Assembly: GCA_937920635.1 (NCBI GenBank)
Contig: CAKZUE010000010.1
Span: 1-43,483, forward strand
Source of the DNA: an uncultured Bryobacteraceae bacterium
GTDB taxonomy: Bacteria > Acidobacteriota > Terriglobia > Bryobacterales > Bryobacteraceae
Direction: 5' to 3'
DNA length: 43,483 bases
This document shows, one piece after another, positions 13,470 through 40,532 of the stretch (position 1 is its first letter; each line of letters begins with the position of its first letter). The position numbers were made by a program, and so were the translations under genes. The notes below the pieces were generated by a model. That model was not told the DNA's origin. It saw only the letters and a list, made by a program, of their open reading frames with translations, and ran no database searches.

Positions 13470-13547
13470 CGGGGCGTGGCTCAGCCTGGTTAGAGCGCCT
13501 GGTTCGGGACCAGGAGGTCGGTGGTTCAAATCCACTCGCCCCGACCA
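13470..13547 (+). tRNA. tRNA-Pro (anticodon CGG)
   Basis: The acceptor arms CGGGGCG (13470-13476) and CGCCCCG (13537-13543) pair perfectly, with the C1:G72 pair typical of bacterial tRNA-Pro. The anticodon stem CCTGG/CCAGG encloses the loop TTCGGGA, giving anticodon CGG, which reads codon CCG. The T-arm holds GGTTCAAATCC. CCA is encoded (13545-13547). No integrase or duplicated tRNA 3' end was noticed nearby. Confidence 0.97.
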
Positions 13548-34537: not shown

Positions 34538-35085
34538 AACGGCGCGAAGACCTCCTCCGTCTGCTGCGCGCGCACACCCCCTGGGACGGCCGCGAAGCCG
34601 CCATGCTCGCCCGCATCATCGCCTTCGTCGAAGCCCGCGATCACTGCTTCGAGCGCAGCCTTCTGGAAGGCCACGTCACCGGCTCGGCGTGGGTCGTCAA
34701 CCCGGAGCGGACCCACGCGCTGCTTGTGCACCACCGCCGCCTCGACCGCTGGCTTCAGCCCGGCGGCCATTGCGATGGCGACCCCGATGTGCTCGCAACC
34801 GCACTCCGCGAAGTGCTCGAGGAGACCGGCATTGCGGCGCAACCCGTCACCCCGGCGGTGTTCGACGTTGACGCCCACGACATCCCCGCGCGAGGCGCCG
34901 AGCCCGCTCACGTCCATTACGACATCCGCTTCCTCGCCGAAGCGCCGCTGTCGCAACAGCCGGTGGTCAGCCCGGAGTCGCGCGATGTCCGCTGGGTGCC
35001 GCTCGACGGGATTTCACAACTGGGCGCCGATGAGTCCGTGCTGCGGCTGGTGGCGAAGACGGTGTCCGCTCCCCATCGCCGTTGA
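34534..35085 (+). CDS. Nudix hydrolase
   Basis: The 183-residue protein contains the Nudix box GGHCDGDPDVLATALREVLEETGI (core REVLEETGI), where the first Glu of GX5E is replaced by Pro but the metal-binding REVxEE Glu residues remain. Flanking LLVHHRRLDRWLQPGGH and a WVPLDGI segment match a common stand-alone Nudix family. It should hydrolyse a nucleoside diphosphate-type bond; the substrate is unknown. The GTG at 34534 overlaps the amidohydrolase stop (GTGA), indicating translational coupling. Its last bases contain the -35 box of the antiporter promoter. Confidence 0.9.
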   Translation: MKRREDLLRLLRAHTPWDGREAAMLARIIAFVEARDHCFERSLLEGHVTGSAWVVNPERTHALLVHHRRLDRWLQPGGHCDGDPDVLATALREVLEETGIAAQPVTPAVFDVDAHDIPARGAEPAHVHYDIRFLAEAPLSQQPVVSPESRDVRWVPLDGISQLGADESVLRLVAKTVSAPHRR

Positions 35086-35110
35086 CAGCGGCGGACCGGA
35101 GACATAGGAT
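35082..35110 (+). promoter_or_regulatory. Consensus promoter of the antiporter operon
   Basis: TTGACA (35082-35087) is a perfect -35 and TAGGAT (35105-35110) a good -10, spaced by exactly 17 bp. The -35 overlaps the Nudix stop codon. The predicted transcript starts near 35117, giving a leader of about 134 bases before the antiporter ATG. Confidence 0.75.
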
Positions 35111-35127
35111 GAAAGCGTAAAGTTCGA

Positions 35128-35232
35128 AAGCGGTGGAGTCCGCTTCCCGCCGTTGCCAACAACGGCCAATGACTCCTGCAGTGGGTGGGCTGCAGAGTTG
35201 TTGGCCAGCCCGGCAGCCCCCCTCGACAACTC
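35128..35232 (+). promoter_or_regulatory. Structured leader RNA, candidate cation riboswitch
   Basis: Hairpin 1 is AAGCGG-TGGAGT-CCGCTT (35128-35145). GGAGTC of its loop (35135-35140) is exactly complementary to GACTCC at 35171-35176, a likely pseudoknot. Hairpin 2 is CCGTTG-CCAA-CAACGG (35150-35165). Hairpin 3 pairs TGCAG (35177-35181) with CTGCA (35190-35194) and can extend, using ACTC/GAGT and GGCCAA/TTGGCC, out to 35164-35206. GAGTTGT (35195-35201) can instead pair with ACAACTC (35226-35232) or, through AGTTGT, with ACAACT at 35243-35248 beside the start codon, a possible translational switch. The architecture and the downstream antiporter suggest the nhaA-I (lithium) or DUF1646 (sodium) riboswitch classes; this is from memory and needs a covariance-model test. 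Confidence 0.65.
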
Positions 35233-35250
35233 GAAGCAAGGAACAACTGG

Positions 35251-36459
35251 ATGGAACAGGTCTGGTTCGTCGCGGCGCTCTGGCTGCTGCTGGCGCTCAT
35301 CGCGGTGCTTGCCGCGCATTGGACGGGCATTTCCACGGCCCTGTCCGAGATCGTCGTCGGCACCGTGGCGCAGCTCATCATCGGCATGCTGCTCGGCCGT
35401 GAGGCATTGGGCGCAAAGGCGGGCTGGATCACATTTCTGGCGGGCACCGGCGCTGTCGTGCTCACATTCCTGGCCGGCGCCGAGCTGGATCCCGACGTGT
35501 TCCGCATGAAATGGAAAGAAGCGCTCGGCGTCGGGCTGGCCGGCTTTGTGGCTCCTTTTCTGGGCGCCGCGCTCATCGCCCGCTTCGCCCTGGGCTGGGG
35601 CTGGATGCCGTCGTGGCTGGCTGGCGTGGCGCTTTCGACCACATCGGTCGCCGTCGTCTACGCCGTCATGCTCGAACTCGGCTTCAACCGCACCGAATAT
35701 GGCAAGGCGATCCTGGCAGCCTGCTTCGTCAACGATCTCGGCACGGTGCTGGCGCTCGGCTTCATCTTCGCCCCATTCACCTGGAAGACGCTTGTATTCG
35801 CCGCCCTCTGCGCCGCCGTCCTGTTCGCATTGCCTTTCCTGACGCGCTGGTTCTTCGACCGTTACGGCGGGCGCGTCTCGGAGATGGAGACCAAGTATCT
35901 GCTCTTCCTGCTGTTCGGAATGGGCGGCGTGGCGGCGTGGGCCGGCAGCGAAGCCGTGCTGCCCGCCTACCTGATTGGCATGATGCTGGCAGGCACCGTC
36001 GGCCGGGATCATTTCCTGGTGCGGCGGCTGCGCACGCTCACGTTCGGACTTCTGACGCCTTTCTACTTCATCCGCGCCGGCAGCTTCGTCTCGGTCCCGG
36101 CGTTGATGGGCGCGCCGCTGGTGTTCTTCGCCCTCTTCGGAGCCAAGATGATCTCCAAGCTGGCGGGTCTGCTGCCGGTCATCCGGGCCTTCGGTTACGC
36201 GCGCAAGGAAGGGACGTATTATTCCCTCATGATGTCCACCGGCCTGACCTTCGGCACCATCTCGGCGCTGTTCGGCCTGAATCACGGAGTCATCGATCAG
36301 AACCAATACTCGCACCTCGTGGCGGCTGTGATCGGCAGCGCTGTCATTCCCACGGCCATCGCCAACGCGCGGTTCCTCCCCGTGCACCTGCTGCCGGAGG
36401 AAGAGCGGCGGCTGCGCGAATCCACTTACGGGGAACCGGAAGGAGAGCTGGATGACTGA
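35251..36459 (+). CDS. CPA2-type monovalent cation/proton antiporter
   Basis: The 402-residue integral membrane protein has about 12 helices and CPA2 signatures VVLTFLAGAELDPDVF and LAGVALSTTSVAVVYAVMLELG. The ion-binding helix reads ACFVNDLGTV, with the N161-D162 pair that usually marks electroneutral exchange rather than the DD of electrogenic NapA/NhaA types. It probably exports Na+, K+ or Li+ against H+. The start ATG has AAGGA eight bases upstream. There is no C-terminal RCK/TrkA regulatory domain; instead DUF190 genes follow 30 bases later. It is preceded by a consensus promoter and a structured leader. Confidence 0.9.
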   Translation: MEQVWFVAALWLLLALIAVLAAHWTGISTALSEIVVGTVAQLIIGMLLGREALGAKAGWITFLAGTGAVVLTFLAGAELDPDVFRMKWKEALGVGLAGFVAPFLGAALIARFALGWGWMPSWLAGVALSTTSVAVVYAVMLELGFNRTEYGKAILAACFVNDLGTVLALGFIFAPFTWKTLVFAALCAAVLFALPFLTRWFFDRYGGRVSEMETKYLLFLLFGMGGVAAWAGSEAVLPAYLIGMMLAGTVGRDHFLVRRLRTLTFGLLTPFYFIRAGSFVSVPALMGAPLVFFALFGAKMISKLAGLLPVIRAFGYARKEGTYYSLMMSTGLTFGTISALFGLNHGVIDQNQYSHLVAAVIGSAVIPTAIANARFLPVHLLPEEERRLRESTYGEPEGELDD

Positions 36460-36489: not shown

Positions 36490-37221
36490 ATGCTGAAACG
36501 CGGACCGGCGAAAAAAGTGACCATCTACATCAACGAAGACGCGCAGCACCACGCCACGGCGCTGCACGACGCCATCATGACCTATCTGCTCAACCACGGC
36601 GTTTCAGGCGCGACGTCGACGCGCGCCTACGCCGGCTTCGGCTCCAGCCATATGCTGCACACGCCGAAGATCGAGGTGCTCTCGCAGCACCTGCCCCTGC
36701 GCATCGAGTTCATTGAAACGCCCGAGAAAGTCGAGGAGGTCCTGCCGACCCTGCACGAAATGGTCAGCGACGGCCTCATCGAAGTCCAGGACACCTTCGT
36801 CGTCAAGGCGGTCCGGAAGAGCCCGAAACCCCAGCCGAAACTGCCCCACCAGAAGAAACAGGGGCCGGCCAAACTGTTGCGCGTGTTCCTCGGCGAGGCC
36901 GACCGCTGGCACGGCGAGCCGCTCTACGACGCCATCGTGAAAAAGCTGCGGATGCTCGAAATCGCCGGCGCCACCGTTTACCGCGGCATCCTCGGCTACG
37001 GCGCCAAAGGCCATGAACACAGGCGCAGCTTTTTCCACCCCACCCGCGACCTGCCGGTGATGATCTCCGTCATCGACGAGCCGCGCAAAATTGAGGAAGC
37101 CGCGCAGGCGATCGAAGAAATGCTTGACGACGGCCTCATCGTCATTTCCGATGTCGAGATGGTGCGCCTGCTGCGCAGCGCGGCGATGGAGGAAGGCCAT
37201 GCTGGCGACGCAACCCGCTAA
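36490..37221 (+). CDS. Double DUF190 (PII-like) protein
   Basis: The 243-residue protein contains two DUF190 domains: residues 8-105 (KVTIYINEDAQHHATALHDAI to DTFVVK) and residues 125-235 (LLRVFLGEADRWHGEPLYDAIV to ISDVEMVRLL), joined by a Lys/Pro/Gln-rich linker. DUF190 proteins have the ferredoxin-like PII fold and are often encoded beside CrcB fluoride channels or cation transporters, so a ligand-dependent regulator of the antiporter is the natural inference. The second domain keeps the AGATVYRGILGYG core, while the first is more divergent (SGATSTRAYAGFG). AAGGAGG precedes the ATG. It overlaps the next DUF190 gene by 23 bases. Confidence 0.9.
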   Translation: MLKRGPAKKVTIYINEDAQHHATALHDAIMTYLLNHGVSGATSTRAYAGFGSSHMLHTPKIEVLSQHLPLRIEFIETPEKVEEVLPTLHEMVSDGLIEVQDTFVVKAVRKSPKPQPKLPHQKKQGPAKLLRVFLGEADRWHGEPLYDAIVKKLRMLEIAGATVYRGILGYGAKGHEHRRSFFHPTRDLPVMISVIDEPRKIEEAAQAIEEMLDDGLIVISDVEMVRLLRSAAMEEGHAGDATR

Positions 37222-37552
37222 GCTTCTCCGCATCCACATTTCGGCGAGCGACCGCTATCAGGGAAAGCCGCTTTATGAGGCCATCGTCGCCCGCTGCCGA
37301 GAGCTCGGAATTGCGGGCGCCACCGTGTTCCGCGGCCTCGAAGGCTACGGGGAAACCGCCACGCTGCACAAACATTACCTGGCGCGCGCCGAGGAGCCGG
37401 TGCTGGTCGCCATCGTCGATACCGCGGACGCCATCGAGCGGCTGCTGCCGCAGGTCGAACCCATGATCGATACGGGCCTCATCGCCATCTCGGCGGTCGA
37501 GGTGATCCGCGTGCAGAAGCGCCCTGATGCCGGAGCACCGCGGCAGCGTTGA
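37199..37552 (+). CDS. Single DUF190 (PII-like) protein
   Basis: The 117-residue protein is one DUF190 domain (AKLLRIHISASDRYQGKPLYEAIV, GIAGATVFRGLEGYG, EPVLVAIVDTADAIERLL, LIAISAVEVIRV). It closely resembles the second domain of the upstream double protein, pointing to duplication. PII-like proteins act as trimers, so one double and one single protein could form a mixed three-domain or higher assembly. Start ATG at 37199 overlaps the double gene by 23 bases, and its end overlaps the ATPase gene by 26 bases, so the three are translationally coupled. Confidence 0.88.
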   Translation: MLATQPAKLLRIHISASDRYQGKPLYEAIVARCRELGIAGATVFRGLEGYGETATLHKHYLARAEEPVLVAIVDTADAIERLLPQVEPMIDTGLIAISAVEVIRVQKRPDAGAPRQR

Positions 37553-38273
37553 GACCGGAACCGCCGCGTCCGGCGCGCTCCCGCTGATCGGGAGGCGGCG
37601 GGAATTGCAGGCGCTGGGCGCGTTGTTCGCACACGGCAGCCGCGTGCTCGTGCTCGGCCCCCGCGGCATCGGCAAGACGCGCCTGATTCAGGAATCCGCG
37701 GCCGCCGGCGGCATTTCTTTGCTCAGTCTAGGCGCGCGCGGCTCTCTGCATGAGTTTCTGCAAGAGCTGCTGCCCCTGGCGGGCCTTGAAACAATTCCTT
37801 CCGATTCTGTTCGGACTCTTTCCAGCCAGGCGCTCCAGTCCCGCGTGCTCGCCGCCCTGCAAGCGCGCCCCCGCTGGCTCTGGATCGACGATCCCGCGCC
37901 CGCCGGAGCGCGCCTGTACCGCTTCCTCCAGCGCGTGCTCTGGATCCAGGGCTGCGGCCTCGCCGTGTGCGCGCAGAACCGGGAGCAGCTCGGCTATCTC
38001 GGGCGTCTGTTATGGGACCCGCGCGAAGAGGTGCGCTTGCGCCCGCTTGCCCGCCGCGATGCGGCCAGGCTCGTGGGGGAAGCCATGAAGGCATCGGGCC
38101 TGGAAAGCCGCGGCTGCTCCGAAGAATTCCGCCGGCAGGTTCTGGACGCCGCCGCCGGAAACCCCGGACGCATTGTGACGTTGTGCCGTCTCGCGGCCCA
38201 GCCGCAATACTGGCATGGCGGCCGCCTGATGTTCGCGCCGCTCTGGATCGACACGCTCACGCAACTGGCTTGA
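37527..38273 (+). CDS. AAA-type P-loop ATPase (AAA_16/ORC-like)
   Basis: The 248-residue protein starts with LIGRRRELQALGALFAHG, the usual entry to AAA_16/STAND-type ATPases, and has Walker A LGPRGIGKTRL (G44-K50-T51), Walker B RWLWIDDP near residues 115-120, and a sensor-like region LAVCAQNREQLGYLGRLL. A winged or helical end follows (SEEFRRQVLDAAAGNPGRIVTLCRLA). No receptor or effector domain is attached. It overlaps the DUF190 gene by 26 bases and so belongs to the antiporter operon; its role there is unknown. Its end overlaps the convergent dynamin-like gene by 17 bases. Confidence 0.75.
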   Translation: MPEHRGSVETGTAASGALPLIGRRRELQALGALFAHGSRVLVLGPRGIGKTRLIQESAAAGGISLLSLGARGSLHEFLQELLPLAGLETIPSDSVRTLSSQALQSRVLAALQARPRWLWIDDPAPAGARLYRFLQRVLWIQGCGLAVCAQNREQLGYLGRLLWDPREEVRLRPLARRDAARLVGEAMKASGLESRGCSEEFRRQVLDAAAGNPGRIVTLCRLAAQPQYWHGGRLMFAPLWIDTLTQLA

Positions 38274-40338
38274 CCGCATCCTCTCCGGCATGCGGAGGCT
38301 CTGGCGTTTCCGACGGCCCCTGGCGGTCGAGCTCCCTCAGCCAGCGCTCGAGACGCTGCCTTTGCTCCGCCTCCATTCCGCCCGCCGAGAGAGTGCGCGC
38401 GATCTCGGCGCGGAACACGCCCGCCTCCGCGTCGTACCGCTGCTGGAGCCATTCGATCTGTCTTAGCAGCCACGATTCCAGGCTGCGGGCATATGTATTC
38501 AGGGTCTGCCACGCCGCACCGCCCGCCTGTCTCTCCAGCGACGCCGCCGCCAACCACCGCCCGGCCCAGGGCAGCGCGGCGGCCGCCGGCAGGCGCACCT
38601 CTTCGGGCAGCGAATCCAGAGACGGGACGGGCAGGCCGCGCACCTGATCGCAGGAGAATTCTTCGGCCGGCGGCTCGGCGCCCGGCCGCATCACGCGGCG
38701 CGACACATCCAGCGCTGCCGACAGACGGGCGCAGAGCTGCTGAAGCCGCTGGAGGAGTTCCTGGGCTGCACGGCTGCAAACCTGCGCAGCCGCGGTCCGC
38801 AACGCCGCAGCGCAGGCGGCGCCGTCGCGCTCGAGGCGCCCGCTCAGGATCTGTTCCAGGGCCTGCCCCAACACGGCCTTGCCCTCTTCCCGCAGCCTGT
38901 CCAGCGCCGATATCCCCTCGCGCTTGGCCAGCTCCAGTTCGGCCGACGCGCGCCGTAGCGTGTCCTCAATCCGCTCGAGCTCGGCGCGCGGAATCCCGCC
39001 GCCCGTTCCCTCCAGGCGCCTGCGCAGAGCCGCCGCTACGGATGCGCGCAGCAGGTGCGCCTTGCGATACAACGACTCGGCGGCCAGCTCTTTGTGCTGC
39101 TCAAGAACAGGGGCCAGTTCTTTCCGCCGCCATCCCTCCAGCAAGGCGGCATGCGCCGCGGCCGTGCTGACAGCGGCGACCGGCAACTCCGCACCCAGTT
39201 CGCGCCGCAGCGCCTCCGCCGTGTACCGCATCGCCCGCTCGAGATCCGTTCCGCTGGCCAGATCGGCTTTGCTCAGCAACACCATGGCCCGCGTCCCCGA
39301 CCTTGTCAGCAGGTCCACGGTGGCCAGGTCTTCCTCGTTCAAAGGAGTCACTGCCGCCACCAGCACCAGTCCCAGGTCGCATTGAGGCAGATACGAGATC
39401 GTCTCCGCCGCCCCCGCCGTTGCCAGTGAACCCAGCCCCGGCGTGTCCACAAACACCACCCCGTCCTGAAGAATCGGGCTCGGCAGCCTCACCGCCAGCC
39501 GGAACACTCCGCGCCGGTTGGCTGGATTCATCTCTTCTGTTGCGAAGAGCGGCAACTGGTCCACCGGAAATTGCTCCACGCGCCCGCCCGCGAAATGCAC
39601 CGTCAGCCCCGGCGCCTCGCCATACAGGATGCGCACCGGCACGGCCGTCACCGGAGTGACGCCCACCGGCAGCACCTCCGTCTCCAGCAGGCGGTTCAGC
39701 AGTGAAGACTTGCCGGAGCTCACCCGCCCGAAAACCGCCAGTTCAAAAGCGGGCCTTTCGAGCTTCTCCACCAGCCGCATGAGCGAAGGCCGGAATTCGT
39801 GGAGATCAGCTTCCCGGATGACCTGGTCCAGGGTTCGCAGCATCCCGCCTATCTCTCCGCCTGCCGGTGCGTGCGCCAGCCGCTCTTCCAGGTCTGCGCC
39901 CGCGCCGCTGCGCAGTTCGGCCTCCAGCATCGTTACCAGCGACTCAAGTTCATTGGTGACGCCTCGCAGCGCGGCTTCGCCGTCCGCATCCAGCTCCCCG
40001 TAACCCCGCAAGTGCTCCGGCGCCATCTCGTGGATGGCCACGCGCACAAAGGCCAGCGTCACCAGAATCGAATGCAGCGCGCTGAGATGCGGGCGTCCGG
40101 CGGACCCCGCAACCGCCGCCTCCAGAAACCTTCCAAGCTGGCGGCGGAACTGCGCGATCGACGAGCGCAGCAACCGCGCCTGCTGCGGCGTCACATCGGG
40201 ATGGTATCGCCGAAACAGGCGTCCTTCCGCTGCGCCGGCCAGGATGTTTTCGATATCGGCGAGGAGTTTGTCAGCATACTCGGCGTTGGCCAGGATGCGC
40301 CGTTGCTGAGAATCATTCAAGAATGTTGGAGCCGCCAT
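38257..40338 (-). CDS. Bacterial dynamin-like GTPase
   Basis: The 693-residue protein has a helical N-terminal part (1-190), then a GTPase domain with G1 GRVSSGKS (204-211), G2 VTPVTAVPV (T228-T231 region), G3 DTPGLG (298-303) and G4 SKAD (356-359, in place of T/NKxD). Long Ala/Glu/Arg/Leu helices follow (about 420-680), as in bacterial dynamin-like proteins that remodel or protect membranes. A hydrophobic stretch near LPAAAALPWAGRWLAAA may contact membrane. It has no partner dynamin gene next to it, unlike paired systems. It runs convergent to the antiporter operon. Confidence 0.88.
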   Translation of the reverse strand: MAAPTFLNDSQQRRILANAEYADKLLADIENILAGAAEGRLFRRYHPDVTPQQARLLRSSIAQFRRQLGRFLEAAVAGSAGRPHLSALHSILVTLAFVRVAIHEMAPEHLRGYGELDADGEAALRGVTNELESLVTMLEAELRSGAGADLEERLAHAPAGGEIGGMLRTLDQVIREADLHEFRPSLMRLVEKLERPAFELAVFGRVSSGKSSLLNRLLETEVLPVGVTPVTAVPVRILYGEAPGLTVHFAGGRVEQFPVDQLPLFATEEMNPANRRGVFRLAVRLPSPILQDGVVFVDTPGLGSLATAGAAETISYLPQCDLGLVLVAAVTPLNEEDLATVDLLTRSGTRAMVLLSKADLASGTDLERAMRYTAEALRRELGAELPVAAVSTAAAHAALLEGWRRKELAPVLEQHKELAAESLYRKAHLLRASVAAALRRRLEGTGGGIPRAELERIEDTLRRASAELELAKREGISALDRLREEGKAVLGQALEQILSGRLERDGAACAAALRTAAAQVCSRAAQELLQRLQQLCARLSAALDVSRRVMRPGAEPPAEEFSCDQVRGLPVPSLDSLPEEVRLPAAAALPWAGRWLAAASLERQAGGAAWQTLNTYARSLESWLLRQIEWLQQRYDAEAGVFRAEIARTLSAGGMEAEQRQRLERWLRELDRQGPSETPEPPHAGEDAVKPVA

Positions 40339-40532
40339 GCCTTTTCGTTCCCGAACCGCAATTCCTGGCCTGGCGCCGGATTGCGCCTTGCGGGCCGTCT
40401 TCCGGCGGGATAGGAGTCATCTGCCCGGCCAGCGGGCCATTTGCGGCGAACTCCAACGCCTTCCATTTCATTCTGGCTGAAGGCGCCGGCATGAACAAGG
40501 CCCGGCCGCACGGTTAATAGATTCGTGTTATT

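Follow-up and report, generated by a model that had tools for sequence, protein, structure and literature searches.

A probable fluoride-type riboswitch of a divergent acidobacterial subtype before a cation/proton antiporter gene

What does a pseudoknotted leader RNA in front of a cation antiporter gene respond to? The question is raised by one locus of the window, by which we mean the whole stretch of DNA analysed, 43,483 nt from an uncultured Bryobacteraceae bacterium (contig CAKZUE010000010.1). An earlier note, made from the sequence alone, had described this leader as a structured, pseudoknotted riboswitch for Na+, Li+ or another ion. A structured ion-type riboswitch leader is borne out by a match to the fluoride (crcB) aptamer, RF01734. 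Na+ or Li+ as the ligand is not, since the fluoride aptamer matches over its full length and homologous leaders covary as fluoride aptamers. From these comparisons of sequence, the leader very probably belongs to a divergent acidobacterial subtype of the fluoride riboswitch, as regards both class and ligand.

The fluoride-type aptamer and its gene run

The gene behind the leader encodes, as had been said, a cation antiporter, related to NapA and KefC, which we take to be CPA2-like. It is the first gene of a run that meets a convergent dynamin-like gene, and it is preceded by a promoter-like site:

35082..35110, + strand: sigma-70-type promoter-like site, TTGACA (35082-35087), 17-nt spacer, TAGGAT (35105-35110); 10 of 12 consensus matches
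35251..36459, + strand: cation/proton antiporter, 402 aa (PF00999, 4e-34; nearest solved relatives NapA, 4bwz, 2e-12, and KefC)
36490..37221, + strand: tandem DUF190 (PII-like) protein (PF02641, 6e-63, two stretches)
37091..37552, + strand: frame with a single DUF190 domain (PF02641, 7e-30, residues 44-138), true start downstream of 37091
37527..38273, + strand: AAA-type ATPase, last gene of the run (PF13191, below the curated cut-off)
38257..40338, - strand: 693-aa dynamin-like GTPase, transcribed towards the antiporter run (PF00350, 4e-22; relatives IniA, GTP-binding protein 5owv and BDLP)

The DUF190 domains behind the antiporter suggest a PII-like partner of fluoride-related transport. The consensus promoter claimed earlier, with its perfect -35 and 17-bp spacer, is the sole such site in 34950-35350 (shuffle mean 0.0, 50 shuffles) and would place the transcription start near 35117. 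Directly before the aptamer, a -10-like hexamer (TAnnnT, at least 4/6) is found in 37/65 homologous leaders versus 1/65 control stretches.

A relaxed Rfam scan of 501 bases against all families gave a full-length RF01734 match at 35120-35185 (24.9 bits, E 9e-5), covering positions 1-64 of 64 with no non-standard pairs; with the whole genome searched (4.15 Mb, 91 contigs), E was 1.7e-4. The score lies below the curated cut-off of 34, and a default Rfam scan therefore misses this aptamer. At curated thresholds, the sole match within the window is a tRNA gene at 13470-13544 (+). The parts of the aptamer are as follows:

35120..35185, + strand: fluoride-type aptamer, G10-C38 variant; the same leader precedes the antiporter in 5/5 genomes of the genus examined
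35129-35132 with 35141-35144, + strand: stem P1, with an extra pair 35128-35145; nt8-nt19 and nt6-nt21 covary
35135..35140, + strand: 5' pseudoknot strand GGAGTC, partner 35171-35176; pairing exact, with covariation
35149..35166, + strand: stem P3 (pair listing; 27-leader alignment)
35169..35177, + strand: retained A40 (35169), U41 (35170) and U48 (35177); the linchpin pair A40-U48 is invariant (111/111 aptamers)
35171..35176, + strand: 3' pseudoknot strand GACTCC, also used by the anti-aptamer hairpin (pair listing)

Two hairpins that had been drawn at 35128-35145 and 35150-35165 thus correspond to P1 and to P3, which extends to 35149-35166, and the complementarity noticed between GGAGTC and GACTCC is exact and is the six-pair fluoride pseudoknot (nt12-17 with nt42-47). 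In a 27-leader alignment, P1, P3, the pseudoknot and nt10-nt38 jointly are paired in 94.2% of cells. The covariation that the earlier note had proposed to look for is there, in the form expected of fluoride aptamers: P1, the pseudoknot and nt10-nt38 all covary across homologous leaders, and compensated versions of the pseudoknot occur in other lineages (L118, L123, L138, L140, L144, L147). Geometry alone is not above chance, as a loose two-stem plus pseudoknot descriptor found 2 matches in the window (the antiporter leader and 40404-40469) versus 0-2 per shuffled window (mean 0.7, 10 shuffles). Taken as sequence plus structure, the aptamer is more than a chance match, judging from the RF01734 E-values and the orthologous leaders in other genomes.

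An aptamer lies upstream in 74/80 homologous antiporter loci, taken from genomes with named records, and within 260 nt in 67/80. The 74 comprise 73 same-strand RF01734 matches no more than 1.5 kb away, 66 of which lie at 260 nt or less, and L073, which Rfam missed. An RF01734 match is missing upstream in seven of the 80 homologs: L073, L092, L111, L114, L117, L143 and L125, whose start lies 40 bases from the end of the contig. G030_C5_642921, which seems to stand before the remnant of a broken antiporter gene, was not counted as an antiporter leader. Of the genomes that carry a close homolog of the antiporter, 77/79 have an RF01734 match at E <= 0.001 (39/40 and 38/39), and leaders of G-C-type antiporter orthologs exceed the Rfam cut-off in G024 (44.0) and G034 (36.5).

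The same evidence bears on a Na+/Li+ riboswitch of the nhaA-I, nhaA-II or DUF1646 type acting on the antiporter by translation. Such a switch would suit the antiporter downstream and the pseudoknotted leader, and Li+ and Na+ riboswitches governing transporter genes exist, according to the available portions of PMC9646797 and PMC9337991. However, the nhaA-I and nhaA-II (Li+), DUF1646 (Na+) and yybP-ykoY (Mn2+) models against which the leader was to be checked are absent from the 11 matches listed for 34900-35400 at E values of up to 10, and the fluoride aptamer accounts for the stems and the pseudoknot and is common to CrcB, enolase and dynamin leaders. We regard a Na+/Li+ switch as extremely improbable here.

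The nt10-nt38 tertiary pair

The window aptamer differs from the canonical one at nt10-nt38, a tertiary pair that presumably adjoins the fluoride site. A second aptamer of the window, that of the dynamin-like gene, differs at the same place:

35133, + strand: nt10, G where the canonical letter is A; its partner nt38 is C at 35167; covarying tertiary pair
40404..40469, - strand: U10-A38 variant of the fluoride-type aptamer, the second in the window, heading the dynamin-like gene; 30.8 bits (under the cut-off), genome-wide E 2.1e-6

In the available part of PMC10687018, nt10-nt38 is a reversed Watson-Crick pair, canonically A-U. This A10-U38 is replaced by G-C in the window antiporter leader and by U-A in the dynamin leader. 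Both leaders are present in 5/5 examined genomes of the genus.

Across 111 distinct aptamers, the pair is A-U in 59, G-C in 34, U-A in 15, A-C in 2 and G-U in 1, so that 108/111 carry one of the first three types. Watson-Crick letters stand there in 97%, versus 42% in shuffles (0/2000 as high), and nt10-nt38 is the top pair by corrected mutual information over 47 anchored columns (P3 and its loop left out). Two matches judged by eye to be chance ones (G019_C92, G031_C5) were left out of the 111, as was a MAFFT alignment (A3, 46 aptamers) that, in our reading, misregisters P3 of the window type. The 127 distinct cores over all loci comprise G-C 50, A-U 42, U-A 30, G-U 2, A-C 2 and A-A 1, and the 73 antiporter-upstream aptamers A-U 48, G-C 22, U-A 2 and A-C 1. 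Because aptamer sequences are related by descent, none of these type counts gives a number of independent changes; replacement must have been of at least two kinds, one to G-C and one to U-A. On the sequence evidence, the pair is kept by covariation though its letters differ, as with G-C in the window.

The replacements are concentrated by lineage. A pattern blind to nt10 and nt38 gave 57 matches in 27/120 genomes of the order, and a reversed control gave 0. The same kind of search in the Cupriavidus phylum gave 2 matches in 299 genomes, too sparse for comparison, and RF01734 matches were therefore used instead (42 in 33/200 genomes of that phylum). Of these 42, 30 were compared, one top match per genome; these 30 Pseudomonadota aptamers are A-U in 28 and A-C in 2, with no other type, a set whose ranking by score biases it towards canonical A-U. 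Records with G-C are titled Bryobacteraceae, Bryobacterales, Solibacteraceae or Acidobacteria with a less exact name, L068 being the exception, and those with U-A are titled Acidobacteria. The L068 record (DYJN01000033.1) is titled Arcobacter sp., a label that is probably wrong, as its length is that of G003 C158, a contig of the window's genus.

An altered pair near the ligand, concentrated by lineage, together with unexpected target genes, could mean that the leader descends from a fluoride aptamer whose specificity was lost or changed, the nt10-nt38 swap and the change of G39 to A having adapted the site to a different anion or ion. But the swap is compensated rather than broken, A40, U41, U48 and the pseudoknot are retained, and CrcB too is headed by a G-C type (L042). 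We consider a change of ligand very unlikely and keep to fluoride.

A limited search met no description of nt10-nt38 covariation. It took in the available parts of the original crcB-motif paper and of PMC13273304, a 2026 covariation study on this riboswitch class whose accessible text has 0 occurrences of "reversed" or "A10". As far as we searched, neither the tertiary-pair swap nor the link to dynamins has been described, and the antiporter link is already known.

Predicted competing hairpins and the output step

Downstream of the pseudoknot, the leader can fold in two ways that exclude each other in prediction:

35164..35206, + strand: predicted anti-aptamer hairpin, 18 pairs, one bulge, -28.3 kcal/mol; proposed ligand-free fold
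35181..35224, + strand: predicted alternative hairpin, GGGTGGGCTGC with GCAGCCCCCC, possible only once 35164-35206 opens; proposed fluoride-bound downstream fold
35226..35232, + strand: ACAACTC, second partner of GAGTTGT 35195-35201 (sequence, duplex test)
35238..35242, + strand: AAGGA, probable Shine-Dalgarno (sequence)

The hairpin at 35177-35194 does extend to 35164-35206, as had been suggested, and in doing so takes the P3 3' side and the pseudoknot strand, so that the aptamer is excluded. We propose that the riboswitch controls the antiporter-DUF190-DUF190-AAA gene run in the following way. Fluoride, as an Mg2+ cluster, would hold the aptamer (P1, P3 and the pseudoknot) in a locked state; here G10-C38 would stand where A10-U38 is canonical, and the A40-U48 linchpin would be retained. 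The locked aptamer would keep GACTCC and the P3 3' side out of the 18-pair hairpin, the downstream RNA would fold as 35181-35224 and the genes would be expressed. When fluoride is absent, the long hairpin at 35164-35206 would form and expression would be low.

The anti-aptamer side of this model recurs in relatives. In local folds, with any partner counted, the pseudoknot-strand positions are paired at 4/7 or more in 69/70 antiporter leaders; L084 has only 3/7 paired, and the fold of L089 is a different small hairpin. This leader set excludes aptamers more than 260 nt away, and the folds exclude G025, which ends at a contig edge. In the 27-leader alignment, the hairpin pairs in 81.9% of cells versus 35-48% when slid; its pairing is not clearly above letter shuffles (38/500 as high), with two-sided changes in 5 cells only. 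The predicted hairpin thus is conserved rather than covarying in the aligned leaders.

The two downstream partners reported for GAGTTGT were found at 35226-35232 and 35243-35248. In the window, the hairpin 3' strand forms a more stable duplex with the sequence downstream than it does after shuffling (z -2.34, 200 shuffles), and the same holds for Bryobacteraceae-type leaders (n=25, mean z -1.38, z < -1 in 13). Acidobacteriaceal-type leaders (n=26, mean z 0.03) and others (n=10, mean z -0.21) are not above shuffles. Downstream re-pairing as a general feature was therefore rejected, being seen in Bryobacteraceae-type leaders only.

Simple occlusion of the ribosome site was not supported either, as two accessibility computations gave no consistent effect. 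The opening energy of the site in the window is 4.87 versus 4.48 kcal/mol between the two folds, no convincing difference; the mean difference is 0.38 kcal/mol in 25 Bryobacteraceae-type leaders (16/25 positive), 0.07 in 23 acidobacteriaceal-type leaders and 0.03 in 16 others. Long-spacing leaders (>100 or 125 nt) were left out of the re-pairing and opening-energy sets, and L127 out of the latter. Whole-leader accessibility on ten leaders was mixed, with the window Shine-Dalgarno unpaired at 0.61 versus 0.59.

A search for intrinsic terminators in 34950-35350 found 0 terminator-like sites. In the window, the 8 bases that follow the final pairing partner of the pseudoknot strand contain 3 T, short of a U-run (at least 5 T in 8). 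A U-run does follow the hairpin at the same place in L116, L120, L137, L139, L141, L145 and G030, and a competing hairpin with a U-run is the terminator arrangement described for the fluoride riboswitch class in the available parts of PMC11077080 and PMC13273304. Our inference is that the leaders of Acidobacteriota either derive from the terminator type or run parallel to it, but act without intrinsic termination. Given the missing U-run, output by translation or by Rho action seems more likely than intrinsic termination.

The absent U-run and the lack of a convincing ribosome-site effect would also fit a decayed or constitutive remnant, an inherited aptamer-like sequence that no longer switches. 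Against this, the aptamer core is retained in the five genus genomes and across the 27 leaders, the anti-aptamer hairpin folds in three of those five genomes and is readable in the other two, and most acidobacterial leaders that have no U-run keep long hairpins at the anti-aptamer place. A remnant accordingly has very little probability in our view, and a working fluoride switch remains the preferred reading.

Genes behind the aptamers, and known systems

RF01734 matched 45 times in 22/61 genomes (the window's own and 60 relatives), two of these being judged chance matches; the strict filters of this search missed the antiporter leaders of G002, G003 and G004, which the pattern blind to nt10 and nt38 found. 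The first gene behind the 45 matches is dynamin-like in 20 and an antiporter in 7. CrcB genes follow the aptamer as well, Pfam-confirmed in four cases (L065, L066, L035, L042), and other aptamer-headed genes encode enolase, MutS, outer-membrane efflux and NADH-dehydrogenase-type proteins. CrcB, enolase and MutS are known fluoride or crcB-motif genes in the available parts of PMC11139923 and PMC2864571. Genome G022 has eight matches, including L049, L040, L041 and L042, before MutS, outer-membrane efflux, NADH-dehydrogenase-type, CrcB, DUF190 and dynamin genes.

Viewed from the dynamin side, ten genomes hold 22 Dynamin_N matches at E < 1e-18; two or three partial matches per genome (20-31 bits), probably other GTPases, were not counted. 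An aptamer directly precedes 16/22 of these genes, including 10/10 full-profile ones in the five genus genomes, and four more start within 1.7 kb downstream of a same-strand aptamer. The remaining two are G022 C52:944, about 5.5 kb downstream of a same-strand aptamer, and G016 C190, with none near. The third fluoride-type aptamer of the window's genome (G000) also belongs to this group:

G000:C22:71294-71359, - strand: L047, G-C type (43.6 bits)

L047 heads a second dynamin-like gene (about 590 aa), behind which lie genes for thiamine phosphate synthase and an amino-acid permease. Genomes of the genus have one CrcB gene each, located elsewhere and with no adjoining RF01734 match; in G000 the single CrcB match is at 97343-97690 of C17, with no RF01734 match near.

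Around the 80 antiporter loci, tblastn over up to 4 kb per side gave DUF190 in 46, Usp in 43, dynamin in 41, CrcB in 36, AAA in 18 and enolase in 17, as raw counts. Full-text searches found no paper joining the fluoride riboswitch with dynamin, or fluoride with COG1993, and none that, judged by title and abstract beginning, joins fluoride or crcB with DUF190 proteins.

These genes invite a wider proposal, which we put forward tentatively and would rate at slightly less than an even chance. Acidobacteriota would have a fluoride-riboswitch subtype of their own, marked by a joint exchange of both letters of the tertiary pair next to the fluoride site (A-U to G-C or U-A) that altered affinity or kinetics. 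This subtype would drive a regulon in which, among the relatives searched, the gene of a dynamin-like membrane GTPase stands first most often, and membrane remodelling or protection would be a new arm of bacterial fluoride resistance. Part of the subtype escapes default scans, so the number of fluoride regulons in this phylum, a large one in soil, is probably underestimated. With its covariation, the nt10-nt38 pair offers a natural test of which parts of the fluoride pocket must stay conserved, and the tie to fluoride sensing would give dynamin-like GTPases and DUF190 proteins a testable physiological setting.

The window leader shares with the fluoride riboswitch RF01734 its P1, P3, six-pair pseudoknot, A40-U48, U41, fluoride-type gene position and competition between aptamer and anti-aptamer. 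It differs in G10-C38, the change of G39 to A, the sub-cut-off score and the lack of a U-run after the competing hairpin. The Enterobacter cloacae FRM fluoride operon (ppaC, uspA, eno, gpmA, crcB, orf5249; available parts of PMC5533749) is likewise a multi-gene fluoride set, and Usp, enolase and CrcB lie near many relatives here; its named genes include no dynamin-like or DUF190 gene, orf5249 being undescribed in those parts. Na+/H+ antiporters under fluoride riboswitches are known, C. difficile CD0656-7 among them (PMC11477304 and PMC11139923, as far as their available text goes), and the proposed control of the window's cation/proton antiporter resembles theirs. What differs in the window is that a NapA/KefC-like antiporter comes first in its run, that DUF190 genes follow it and that a dynamin-like gene is its neighbour.
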